Below the pieces are notes generated by a model that was given only the letters and a program-made list of their open reading frames with translations, ran no database searches and was not told where the DNA came from. The position numbers and the translations under genes are program-made. From positions 1 through 50,274 of the IMG/VR virus record IMGVR_UViG_3300046506_000470: DNA of 50,274 nucleotides, one strand, 5' to 3'. This document shows, in pieces, positions 33,541-37,621 of this stretch. The DNA is from a virus. Every line of letters starts with the position of its first letter. Position 1 is the stretch's first letter.

Positions 33541-33554
33541 TTGCACTCATGCAT
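33541..33554. promoter_or_regulatory. Operator overlapping the cI start codon
   Basis: TTGCAC-TC-ATGCAT matches the 14-bp operator at 10 of 12 half-site positions and overlaps the cI ATG at 33549. A further half-site ATGCAC lies at 33520. A weak -35-like TTGATG (33513) and -10-like GACTAT (33536) would start transcription at about the ATG, so cI mRNA may be leaderless as in lambda PRM. Confidence 0.6.
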
Positions 33555-34385
33555 AAATCTATTGATAAAAACCTTGCCGAGCTCATGGCTCGGGCCAAGG
33601 TCACCCAGGCTGATCTCTCTCGCTTGACGAAAATCGGGCAGCCGACTATTTCCCGAATACTCAAACCCGCGGGGCTAAAGGGGATTAAGGAGCCAACCGA
33701 TAAGCAAGTGAAGCCACTCGCCGACTTTTTCGGTGTGAGTACTGATCAACTCCGCGGATATGCACCGATTGATTCGCCTTCGGGTGGCACAACTGAGCAA
33801 GAGAAGCCGGTCTCTCCTGCCGATCTGGTTCGTGAGCTGCTTGCCAGGAATGTGAAGCTGCCTGATCACCTTAAGCAGAAGCTGATAGCCGTAGCCGACA
33901 GCCAAGGAGAGAAACCCAGCAATGTGATCACAGTCGACTTCTCACGGCCTGGGCAAGTCGGCGATGAGGTGTGGATCGCTCACTATGATGTGCGCGCGGC
34001 GATGGGAGGCGGTCAGATCCCGCACGAATTCCCTGAAATGCTCCAGGACATCCGTGTCAGCCCCAAGCATTTGCGCGAAATGGGCGTCACTTTTAAAGAG
34101 CACTTTCATCTGAAGATGATCACCGGCTGGGGCCAGTCGATGGCGCCCACGATCAAGGATCGCGACCCGCTGCTGGTGGATGTCACCATCCGAGAATTCA
34201 CAGGGGATGGCATCTATCTGTTCTCCCACGACGAGATGCTTTACGTAAAGCGTCTTCAGAAGAAGGGCAAGCAAGGCTTCAAAATGATTTCAGACAATAA
34301 GCATCACGACCCTGAGGATATCCGGGTGGATGACACTCACATCCTTGCGCGTGTGCTTTACGTATGGAATGGGCAGCCGGTTTGA
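33549..34385 (+). CDS. cI: CI-type phage repressor, HTH plus S24 LexA-like peptidase
   Basis: The start is ATG 33549. The open frame upstream runs through operators and the cro gene. The 278-residue protein has an N-terminal HTH (LAELMARAKVTQADLSRLTKIGQPTISRIL) at about 9-38 and a C-terminal S24 domain. TGWGQSMAPTIKDRDPLLVD carries Ser197 and MLYVKRLQ carries Lys234 of the catalytic dyad. It maintains lysogeny by binding the 14-bp operators and self-cleaves on SOS induction. There is no ribosome site before the ATG. Confidence 0.93.
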   Translation: MHKSIDKNLAELMARAKVTQADLSRLTKIGQPTISRILKPAGLKGIKEPTDKQVKPLADFFGVSTDQLRGYAPIDSPSGGTTEQEKPVSPADLVRELLARNVKLPDHLKQKLIAVADSQGEKPSNVITVDFSRPGQVGDEVWIAHYDVRAAMGGGQIPHEFPEMLQDIRVSPKHLREMGVTFKEHFHLKMITGWGQSMAPTIKDRDPLLVDVTIREFTGDGIYLFSHDEMLYVKRLQKKGKQGFKMISDNKHHDPEDIRVDDTHILARVLYVWNGQPV

Positions 34386-34624
34386 TCTGAGGGGATGACG
34401 TCTCCTATGAGGAGTACCAGGTGCGGTAAAAGAAGATCATGGGGGAGTGATGCCCCTCTCGGCACAGATGGCGCCAAGCGCCATGTGTCCGAGGTCGGTG
34501 CTGGCTTATCGCTAAGATGCGAGTGACGGGAGGGTTGAGCTAGCGCAAGCCAATCAGACTGGATAGTGATTTACAAGGTTGCAATGAACGTAGCTTTTAA
34601 TTAATCAATACAAAGGGATTTGCA

Positions 34625-35560
34625 GTGCCGAATTTCAATCTGTCCAAGCTCATAATAGATGAACCTCCATTCCGAAAGCTAAAAAAAATTGAGTTTGAAT
34701 TTGCTCCTAGAATCACGCTGATCGCCGGGCACAATGGCATTGGCAAGTCAACGATTCTTGCGCTGGTTGCAAACGGATCTGGGTTGACCGACTCAGAGCA
34801 TAGTAGCTATACCGGGAAAACATTTCAGGGAAACCTAAATGAGATCATCCACCTCGACTATGAGTCGGAATTTTCTGATAAGAAAATTGCAAATACGCTC
34901 CCCAAGCCAGTGCTGGAGTACTCGCTAGACGGCCAAGCTTTTAAAAAGCGATGCGCATTGACTAAAAGGACAGTGCCAGCAACAGAAACAAAAGCAGCTC
35001 GTCTTGAAGCACGGGTGGTTCCCAGGAACATCCCTCTCAAAGATTTTGCTGTCCCGGGCTCGGAAATAGTAATAGGAAGCGCATCAAAAGTTCCAATCCC
35101 TACTATTTACCTTGGCATGACACGGATGCTTCCAATTGGGGAAAGCGACCCCGAGATGGTCGAAAATACTCCTGACACATTAATAAATCCACTGGATGTG
35201 GACTTCATAACCAGCTTCGTAAATGGTGTCATAGGAGTAGGCGCTAACATTGGTGCCGATAAATCCATCACGACGCAGTCCATCAAGGGCACAAATAAGA
35301 CCACAAAGCATCCAGCTTACAGCCATAGTCCGAAGACCGTTTCATTGGGACAGGACAGCCTCAGCGCCATAGCGACAGCGCTTGCTTCCTTTCAAAAGCT
35401 AAAGCGTGAGTGGCCAGATTATCCAGGCGGTCTACTTGTGATTGACGAGCTCGATGCGGGCTTCCACCCACACGCACAGCAGAAGCTGATTAAAAGCATT
35501 GGGAATACAGCCAAAAACTTAATATACAGGTTGTCGCGACAACTCACTCACTGTGTTTAA
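34625..35560 (+). CDS. AAA ATPase, first part of a frameshifted OLD-like AAA-TOPRIM protein
   Basis: The start is GTG 34625 with AAGGGA 6 nt upstream. The 311-residue reading frame has Walker A GHNGIGKST (35-43), a signature-like SLGQDS (240-245) and Walker B LLVIDELD (270-277) followed by AGFHPHAQQKL. This is the ABC/SMC-type ATPase of OLD and related defence nucleases. After NTAKNL the frame runs into 12 meaningless residues. The -1 frame restores IQVVATTHSLCLIEA, the expected next segment. The gene is AT-richer than its neighbours and has a candidate promoter in the 239-bp gap upstream, so it looks like cargo. Confidence 0.8.
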   Translation: MPNFNLSKLIIDEPPFRKLKKIEFEFAPRITLIAGHNGIGKSTILALVANGSGLTDSEHSSYTGKTFQGNLNEIIHLDYESEFSDKKIANTLPKPVLEYSLDGQAFKKRCALTKRTVPATETKAARLEARVVPRNIPLKDFAVPGSEIVIGSASKVPIPTIYLGMTRMLPIGESDPEMVENTPDTLINPLDVDFITSFVNGVIGVGANIGADKSITTQSIKGTNKTTKHPAYSHSPKTVSLGQDSLSAIATALASFQKLKREWPDYPGGLLVIDELDAGFHPHAQQKLIKSIGNTAKNLIYRLSRQLTHCV

Positions 35561-35688
35561 TTGAGGCGATACATCCCGATGCAAATGCGATTGGGGCTAA
35601 AGGATCATACGTCGACAAAGTAATTTACATCAGAGATACGAATCATCCAAAGATCAAGGACTCATCCCTACAGTCGATCAAGGACGAC

Positions 35689-36327
35689 ATGAATCTGACA
35701 CCGCCTAAGCCTTTGAAAAAACCTGAGACGAAGTATCTGAAAGTATATCTAGAAGACGCCGAAGCAAATAGATTTATAAAAGCTTTAATCACTCGACGCG
35801 TCCAGAACAAGGTAAAGGAAGCCTGCGGTGCCTTATTGAAGCCCATCCCGATAAGTGTTGGGTGCGAAAACCTTCAAGGTTTGCAGCAATTCGACCCGCA
35901 TTTCAAAACTGTATTAATCGCCGTAGATGCAGACTCGACTGTGCGCAAGGGCAAAGGAAGAAATAAGATCAAAAACGTCGTCAAGCTTCCGGGCGGATCG
36001 GACGCAGCGGGTCGAGGTTTTAATCCCGAGCGCACGATCTATGAGTTTGTGAAGGAGCTTATAGAGAATGAAGACAATTACGTCAGAACCAGAGAGCATT
36101 TGGATGCCCTTGGAGTAACAAGCGACCAGCTCTATCACCATTTGATCGAAGGCGATGTTGTGATTACCAAGCGCGAATCATCCAAAAATTGGATGAAGGC
36201 TCGACTACAAATCATTGATGATTGGAACTTGATCGGCCTATGGCTTGCGGAGCACCCCGAGAAGGTTCAGGCCTTTGAGGGGGAGCTGCTGAAGGCGGCA
36301 GTGGCGACAGCAGAACTGACATTTTGA
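35689..36327 (+). CDS. TOPRIM-like domain, second part of the OLD-like protein
   Basis: The 212-residue ORF opens at an internal ATG. Its frame is open back to about 35518 and includes VVATTHSLCLIEAIHPDANAIGA. It has KYLKVYLEDAEANRF with the TOPRIM Glu, and VLIAVDADS with the Asp-x-Asp pair. KLPGGSDAAGRGFNPERTIYEFV is typical of TOPRIM-linked nuclease domains. No ribosome site precedes the ATG, so on its own it is probably not made. If the frame were repaired it would form the nuclease half of the upstream ATPase. Confidence 0.65.
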   Translation: MNLTPPKPLKKPETKYLKVYLEDAEANRFIKALITRRVQNKVKEACGALLKPIPISVGCENLQGLQQFDPHFKTVLIAVDADSTVRKGKGRNKIKNVVKLPGGSDAAGRGFNPERTIYEFVKELIENEDNYVRTREHLDALGVTSDQLYHHLIEGDVVITKRESSKNWMKARLQIIDDWNLIGLWLAEHPEKVQAFEGELLKAAVATAELTF

Positions 36328-36391
36328 AGGCTGGCCAAGTATACTGCGCGCCGCTAAACTGAGGCTTGCATACCTCAAAGGATGAGATTGA

Positions 36392-37270
36392 ATGTACTCC
36401 AACAAGCTGTATAGCCCACTGCGATACCCTGGGGGAAAGGCCCGGTTTGCGCATTTTATTTCGGAAGTCATGCGCGCCAACGGCCTGATTGGAGGTCATT
36501 ATCTGGAGCCTTTCGCTGGCGGCGCAGGGGTTGCTTTGGAGCTTCTCTTCGACGGGCATGCCTCGCACATACATATCAATGACCTAGACCCTGCCGTCCA
36601 TGCTTTTTGGGCGGCCGCGACAGCCGACGCTGAGGGCATGCTGAAGCTACTCCACGACACGCCAATCACAATGGATCAGTGGCATCACTGGCGCTCTGTA
36701 ATGCTTTGCCAGGATCCTAATCTGTCGCCAGCTGAGCGCGGGTTCGCAACCCTGTTCGTGAATCGAACCAACCGCTCTGGCATTCTGAAGGGCGGTGTAA
36801 TTGGCGGTAAAGCCCAGACTGGCGCTTACAAACTCGATGCCAGGTTCAGCAAGGAGATGATCTCGGCAAGATTGGAGCGCATTGCCCTCCACGCTGGATC
36901 GATCTCCGTTTACTGCGAAGACGCTTTTCAGCTCTTAGGCCGAGCTTCGGTTCTGTTACCTGAGAAATCGTTGATTTACTTGGATCCTCCTTACTACGTA
37001 AAAGGGCGCGGCTTGTATAGAAATTTCTACAAGCATGACGACCACTTGCAGATCGCTCGCCTTCTTCAGTCGCCGGAATTTGGGCGGCCTTGGGTGGTCT
37101 CCTACGACAGCGCGCCAGAAATATGCGAGATGTATAGCGAGAATGAGGCGCTCAGCTACGGCCTTCATTACACTGCGCAGGCTCGCTATGTTGGCGATGA
37201 GGTGATGTTCTTCAAGGAGGGCATTGCAATTCCTGACACCAAAATTCCCAGAGCGACGGTCGCCGCGTAG
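36392..37270 (+). CDS. D12-class N6-adenine DNA methyltransferase
   Basis: The 292-residue protein carries the D12/Dam order: PLRYPGGKARFAHF (motif X, residues 9-22), LEPFAGGAGVALEL (motif I, 38-51), FVNRTNRSGILKGGVIGG and LDPPYYVKGRGLY with catalytic DPPY at 198-201. It methylates adenine in DNA, with an unknown recognition site. A GGATGAG ribosome site precedes the ATG. It lies 64 bp after the AAA-TOPRIM gene in the same direction, suggesting a two-gene unit. A hairpin closes the unit at 37276. Confidence 0.92.
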   Translation: MYSNKLYSPLRYPGGKARFAHFISEVMRANGLIGGHYLEPFAGGAGVALELLFDGHASHIHINDLDPAVHAFWAAATADAEGMLKLLHDTPITMDQWHHWRSVMLCQDPNLSPAERGFATLFVNRTNRSGILKGGVIGGKAQTGAYKLDARFSKEMISARLERIALHAGSISVYCEDAFQLLGRASVLLPEKSLIYLDPPYYVKGRGLYRNFYKHDDHLQIARLLQSPEFGRPWVVSYDSAPEICEMYSENEALSYGLHYTAQARYVGDEVMFFKEGIAIPDTKIPRATVAA

Positions 37271-37393: not shown

Positions 37394-37621
37394 ATGCTCT
37401 ACCACGACAACATCATCCGTAATCTTCCCTTCTACTGCCCACCAGGCTTGCAAGTAACCCTCAAGCGCGTCGGGCGCACGAAGGGGCAGTTCCGCATCAA
37501 GGGCGCAGACCGATCGTTCTTGCTCACCAGCAATCGGCCTGACATCTTCACATTCGAGAGCAACGATACGCAGATGAAGCGGTTCTTTGCTGACGCGTAC
37601 CAGCGATACGCTAACAGCTAA
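37394..37621 (+). CDS. Small hypothetical protein
   Basis: The start is ATG 37394 (MLYHDNIIRNLPFYCPPGLQ) with AGGAG 6 nt upstream. The open frame to 37274 lacks a site. The 75-residue protein is basic and soluble (VTLKRVGRTKGQFRIKGADRSFLL) and ends in FFADAYQRYANS. No family recognised. A possible imperfect hairpin with a short T-run follows at about 37635-37660. Confidence 0.65.
   Translation: MLYHDNIIRNLPFYCPPGLQVTLKRVGRTKGQFRIKGADRSFLLTSNRPDIFTFESNDTQMKRFFADAYQRYANS

Follow-up and report, generated by a model that had tools for sequence, protein, structure and literature searches.

A predicted OLD-like ATPase/TOPRIM gene and a D12 adenine methyltransferase as a probable prophage defence pair with kinship to PD-lambda-5

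Described systems and the locus

PD-lambda-5 is a two-gene system of E. coli prophages for which phage protection was shown; the authors who described it (Vassallo et al., 2022; PMC9519451) speak of an "RM+Abi" system that is compact and prophage-borne. OLD-type ATPase and TOPRIM modules also serve in other phage defence systems. PARIS and retron Eco8 each use an OLD-type ATPase/TOPRIM effector and act by abortive infection, PARIS in reaction to an anti-restriction protein (PMC9122126; PMC10568477). In class 1 OLD proteins, e.g. P2 Old and the OLD protein of Thermus scotoductus, the ABC-ATPase and TOPRIM parts share one chain encoded by a single gene, and no methyltransferase adjoins P2 old. 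Gabija (class 2 OLD) has a UvrD-like helicase as partner, and PARIS (class 4) splits ATPase and TOPRIM between proteins.

The locus considered here lies in a stretch of 50,274 nucleotides, referred to as the window (positions 1 to 50,274 of IMG/VR virus record IMGVR_UViG_3300046506_000470), which at the DNA level weakly resembles Pseudomonas phage D3 and its relatives. Its features are as follows.

33549-34385, + strand: CI-like S24 repressor, directly 5' of the ATPase gene (Peptidase_S24, E 5e-18)
34625-35560, + strand: OLD-like ABC-ATPase/TOPRIM gene, N-terminal (ATPase) part, GTG start, frame 2 (phrog_3940 positions 12-285, E 7e-60; AAA_15, E 2e-12)
35515-35527, + strand: site of the frameshift, where a DNA alignment with seven intact relatives shows one base missing
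35527-36327, + strand: remainder of the same gene, with the H-loop and the predicted TOPRIM part, frame 1 (phrog_3940 positions 294-532, E 9e-35)
36316-36345, + strand: promoter-like site CTGACA-N18-TATACT, 5' of the methyltransferase; the -10 is invariant in relatives, the -35 is not
36329-36347, + strand: conserved 19-bp element GGCTGGCCAAGTATACTGC, nearly invariant, which includes the -10-like TATACT
36360-36377, + strand: inverted repeat TGAGG-N8-CCTCA, just 5' of the methyltransferase ribosome-binding site (17 sequences)
36392-37270, + strand: intact D12-class N6-adenine DNA methyltransferase of the PD-Lambda-5_B family, 292 aa (PF02086, E 2e-15)

A 239-bp gap (34386-34624) precedes the ATPase gene. 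On the 3' side of the methyltransferase is a 75-aa open reading frame (37394-37621), for which Pfam gives no match and the libraries searched give no significant relative.

The closest relation is with PD-lambda-5, which has the same D12 methyltransferase family in a two-gene prophage cassette and is joined to the present pair by four loci that carry both kinds of effector. The partner differs, however, being a PD-Lambda-5_A protein of ~470 aa unrelated to OLD in PD-lambda-5 and an OLD-like ABC-ATPase/TOPRIM protein here; the two partner families have no common matches, i.e. they form disjoint sets. The PD-Lambda-5_A models PDLC04016 and PDLC04017 have no match in the window record; they match nothing in the control genomes either, yet do match real PD-Lambda-5_A proteins in other loci. 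Membership of PD-lambda-5 as defined was therefore rejected, the A component being absent. Class 1 OLD provides the best structural match and the one-chain architecture, and the E. coli copy of the pair (methyltransferase WP_001581117.1 first, then ATPase WP_001581118.1) occupies the P2 old/tin locus, flanked in a P2-like prophage by the gene for the replication endonuclease on one side and the portal gene on the other. Vassallo et al. describe this spot in P2-like prophages as the old/tin defence hotspot (PMC9519451). Class 1 genes are nevertheless single, whereas a D12 methyltransferase lies within 2.6 kb of 61/61 complete AAA-TOPRIM homologues, and sequence similarity to class 1 is limited to the ATPase core. 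Gabija and PARIS resemble the locus in their modules and differ in architecture, with a methyltransferase here in place of the helicase of Gabija and one chain in place of the split of PARIS. The pair shares with type II restriction-modification an adenine methyltransferase adjoining a predicted nuclease, in either order and on mobile elements, but the ATPase/TOPRIM enzyme replaces the standard restriction endonuclease fold, and a nearly constant methyltransferase is common to highly divergent nucleases.

Gabija was rejected for the window on gene content, the nearest fold being class 1 OLD: between 33549 and 37621 there is no UvrD-like helicase gene, only the repressor, the ATPase gene, the methyltransferase and the 75-aa frame. 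The label "Gabija-type" used in an earlier note on this DNA thus has to be dropped, as the neighbour is a methyltransferase. In the same note this exact pair is not known as a described system. This holds for the open-access literature searched, in which no system of OLD plus D12 methyltransferase is described (an earlier in silico mention may exist), and for PADLOC 2023, NCBIfam and PHROGs, in which the pair is not named; it holds less well for the methyltransferase, whose kin are PD-Lambda-5_B. Krishnan et al. reportedly surveyed ABC ATPases in 2020 and may mention the pair. In databases the methyltransferase goes under PD-lambda-5, as one half of that system, or under type II or orphan methyltransferases; the nuclease is the unknown phrog_3940. 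The best reading of these sequence comparisons is that the pair would be a variant around PD-lambda-5, distinct both from PD-lambda-5 as defined and from class 1 OLD. If it works, a methyltransferase-linked class of OLD would join the stand-alone, Gabija, retron and PARIS classes.

The two genes and the region between them

The first gene product is an ABC-type ATPase (Pfam AAA_15 and AAA_21). Across 79 diverse homologues, G35, N37 and K41 of Walker A, S240, G242 and D244 of the signature, D274 and E275 of Walker B, H308 and S309 of the H-loop, and E377, D378, D435 and D437 are invariant. The window copy keeps 26/26 strongly conserved residues checked, including Walker A GHNGIGK, signature SLGQDS, Walker B DE, H-loop HS, the TOPRIM-type E377 and D435-x-D437, and also K521, so that the Walker A/B, SLGQDS and TOPRIM-type Glu and Asp-x-Asp residues seen earlier are all in place. 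The OLD-family ABC-ATPase core, with Walker A/B, signature and H-loop, is accordingly present; the profile match to P2 Old covers this core only (E 2e-6), and the best hmmscan matches are AriA, PtuA and other generic ABC models.

A C-terminal TOPRIM domain is predicted from motifs, fold and Foldseek matches. The AlphaFold2 model of a relative with an intact gene, L005, has a mean pLDDT of 93.1, and its top Foldseek match in the PDB is the class 1 OLD of Thermus scotoductus (TsOLD, 6p74; E 2.7e-12), followed by PtuA, GajA and retron Eco8 effectors. Global TM-scores are low (0.27-0.36, with 0.27-0.30 for OLD), so the same domain packing as in OLD cannot be claimed. The order of strands and helices in the C-terminal part fits TOPRIM, with fold matches to 6p74 and GajA. 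Two attempts to recognise TOPRIM from sequence profiles alone failed, a profile of the C-terminal part giving nothing relevant in the PDB and no alignment to P2 Old, and the label rests on fold and motifs. The gene is predicted to encode an ATP-driven enzyme that cuts DNA or RNA.

Comparison with relatives shows that 34625-36327 is a single gene, interrupted near 35520 by a frameshift of one base, as had been proposed for the split ATPase reading frames. Both parts can be assigned to one gene because they align, one after the other, with a single family of 537 positions, phrog_3940; one base is missing, and intact relatives in viral contigs have uninterrupted frames of ~560 aa, e.g. L005 with 78% identity over 566 residues. 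Programmed frameshifting was rejected, as the relatives read straight through and the site has no classical slippery heptamer. Silent codon differences from L005 outnumber replacements in both halves of the window gene, which, together with the retention of all conserved residues, makes the break recent or a sequencing error. Probably, then, the nuclease of the window is dead, or else the frameshift is an error of sequencing or assembly.

The methyltransferase starts 64 bp 3' of the ATPase stop and is complete, as the earlier note had stated. It carries the motifs DPPY and EPFAGGAG, and PADLOC PD-Lambda-5_B (PDLC04018) matches residues 5-285 (E 7e-108); a check against profile collections, which the note had suggested, gives a defence family for the methyltransferase and, for its partner, the generic ABC models.

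In the intergenic region a promoter scan finds two promoter-like sites against 3.1 in shuffles. Since the match alone is not significant, only conservation of the element across species counts. The 18-mer core of GGCTGGCCAAGTATACTGC occurs in only 17 stretches among all viral contigs, every one of them on a pair-carrying contig, and it is kept even where the upstream ATPase is ~25% identical. In the inverted repeat 93% of cells are paired over 17 sequences, with compensatory change in two pairs, a modest level of support. The TATACT-bearing element and the inverted repeat before the ribosome-binding site suggest that expression of the methyltransferase may be controlled separately, and the elements at 36329-36377 are possible candidates for its promoter or regulator.

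Linkage of the genes and exchange of partners

The adjacency of the two genes was counted from both sides. When viral contigs are searched with the methyltransferase only, an AAA-TOPRIM gene adjoins in 36/36 loci. In the opposite direction, a PD-Lambda-5_B-like methyltransferase lies within 700 bp of 59/62 distinct complete AAA-TOPRIM genes, found by an ATPase-alone or family-profile search and with sufficient flank. A recount, which omits L015, places some D12 methyltransferase within 2.6 kb of all 61 complete nuclease genes. In L006 and L007 the methyltransferase belongs to another D12 subfamily and is on the opposite strand, in one case ~1.1 kb away; its presence even when the subfamily differs suggests that adenine methylation is the common need. 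The ATPase gene precedes the methyltransferase in 82 pairs and follows it in 7, and 3 pairs are on opposite strands. Bacterial genome contigs contain pairs as well, in Burkholderiales, Bacteroidales and others; Acinetobacter has the pair in 5/99 sampled genomes, with 6/6 copies paired. Co-occurrence thus extends to dozens of other viruses and bacteria, and the homologues, far from being rarely adjacent, are almost obligate neighbours.

The surroundings are variable. Within 80 CI-repressor loci used as a control (891 kb), either gene occurs in only two, in both as the full pair, and the 3' side of the repressor holds other genes in the remaining 78. That the genes adjoin by chance, through a gene order common to related phages, was rejected on this control, the occurrence of both orders and the chromosomal pairs. 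In the same loci (L201-L280), gene content 0-4.5 kb 3' of the repressor differs in nearly every related phage. The slot is likely a cargo hotspot, in agreement with the cargo site proposed earlier, and the ATPase gene is indeed AT-richer than the phage (GC 0.470 vs 0.577 for the window, within the lowest 0.6% of equal-sized windows). The counts argue that the two genes form a real, almost obligate cassette that is variable cargo beside the repressor.

The nuclease is broken and the methyltransferase intact in 4/48 loci (the window, L033, L053 and L086), and an intact nuclease with a lost methyltransferase is found in 0/61. This asymmetry is weak (p = 0.035); loss of the nuclease alone fits a self-protection role of the methyltransferase, the numbers being small.

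Partners are exchanged. Methyltransferases 87-89% identical to that of the window have ATPase partners 19-78% identical to its ATPase, and DNA similarity to L013 and L031 starts 2 bp 3' of the ATPase stop and spans the methyltransferase. The reverse is seen in L002, where the ATPase is 66% identical but the methyltransferase only 39%. Among 80 cellular loci of the methyltransferase family, which include distant relatives, 49 have PD-Lambda-5_A as the partner, 15 have AAA-TOPRIM and 4 have both; in the other 12, of which several sit at the end of a contig, no partner of either kind lies within 700 bp. The loci with both (L060, L075, L082 and L086) have the three genes PD-Lambda-5_A, methyltransferase and AAA-TOPRIM, and they link PD-lambda-5 to the AAA-TOPRIM pair. 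In L075 and L086 the methyltransferase and ATPase genes overlap by 4 bp. The methyltransferase tree requires at least 12 partner changes, and the Acinetobacter sister methyltransferases of L058 and L067, 93% identical, have different partners.

Predicted function and alternatives

The explanation regarded as probable is that of a prophage defence module of two genes with kinship to PD-lambda-5, in which a methyltransferase is paired with an exchangeable, predicted TOPRIM effector that methylation would restrain. The best reading of the module is as a restriction-modification-like or methylation-guarded abortive system with an OLD-type effector. The methyltransferase would methylate host and prophage DNA at one fixed site, and this methylation, or the methyltransferase itself, would hold off the ATP-dependent TOPRIM enzyme, which would be released on unmodified incoming phage DNA. 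Alternatively, the TOPRIM enzyme would act as a suicidal nuclease once a phage disturbs methylation. The exchanged nuclease halves probably would respond to different phages or triggers. The possible defence cassette of the earlier note is strengthened by the near-obligate pairing, the repressor-side cargo position and the E. coli copy in a proven prophage defence hotspot; its Gabija-type assignment is lost, and the methyltransferase turns out to have known kin. The marking of self DNA for the nuclease that the note proposed is plausible.

A broader formulation, given a slightly better than even chance, is a combinatorial family in which the D12 methyltransferase stays constant and the effectors are diverged OLD-like clades, PD-Lambda-5_A or both. 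The methyltransferase would then serve as a constant self-marker or as a sensor under guard, with the response of the cell depending on which effector has been swapped in.

More tentative, and somewhat short of an even chance, is a guarded abortive system, in which the OLD-like protein would not read methylation of the DNA: the methyltransferase would restrain it, or it would sense phage attack on the methyltransferase, and it would kill the infected cell, much as PARIS responds to an anti-restriction protein. The use of OLD-type effectors for abortive infection in PARIS and retron Eco8 (PMC9122126; PMC10568477) speaks for such a system, as do the "RM+Abi" designation given to PD-lambda-5 by its authors (PMC9519451) and a methyltransferase that is nearly constant while the nucleases diverge to 19% identity. 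A lock between the two proteins is made less likely by L006 and L007, whose methyltransferase is of another D12 subfamily and lies on the other strand, once ~1.1 kb off; because another subfamily can substitute there, methylation is favoured over a fixed protein lock. Natural swaps, i.e. one methyltransferase with a different nuclease or with both effectors, could serve to separate the methylation reading from guarding of the methyltransferase by the OLD nuclease.

For the window itself the nuclease half appears inactivated and the methyltransferase is predicted to work. That this copy is a decayed remnant, whose orphan methyltransferase perhaps guards the phage against relatives with an intact pair, is held with comparable doubt; it concerns the window copy rather than the family and is compatible with the favoured module. 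The frameshifted ATPase gene beside an intact methyltransferase with its conserved upstream element is consistent with decay, as are the further loci with a broken nuclease and an intact methyltransferase, but there is one lesion only, every conserved residue is kept and silent differences exceed replacements, which points to a very recent event or a sequencing error.

It is very improbable that the genes are mere neighbours, with the methyltransferase as a shield of the phage against restriction by the host and the ATPase/nuclease as a separate superinfection-exclusion gene like P2 old: orphan adenine methyltransferases are common in phages and P2 old acts alone, but linkage is near-total from both blind searches, in both orders, in phages and in chromosomes of several phyla, and holds although the surrounding slot is otherwise variable.

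Two minor observations concern relatives of the partners. Pfam finds no significant domain in the PD-Lambda-5_A proteins, encoded 5' of the methyltransferase; near the N-terminus of those from L058 and other genome loci is a GNRR-type motif that on visual inspection resembles ParB. In L132 (7574-9462) an AAA-TOPRIM relative is followed by a SRAP-domain gene and an opposite-strand Dam-type D12 methyltransferase.
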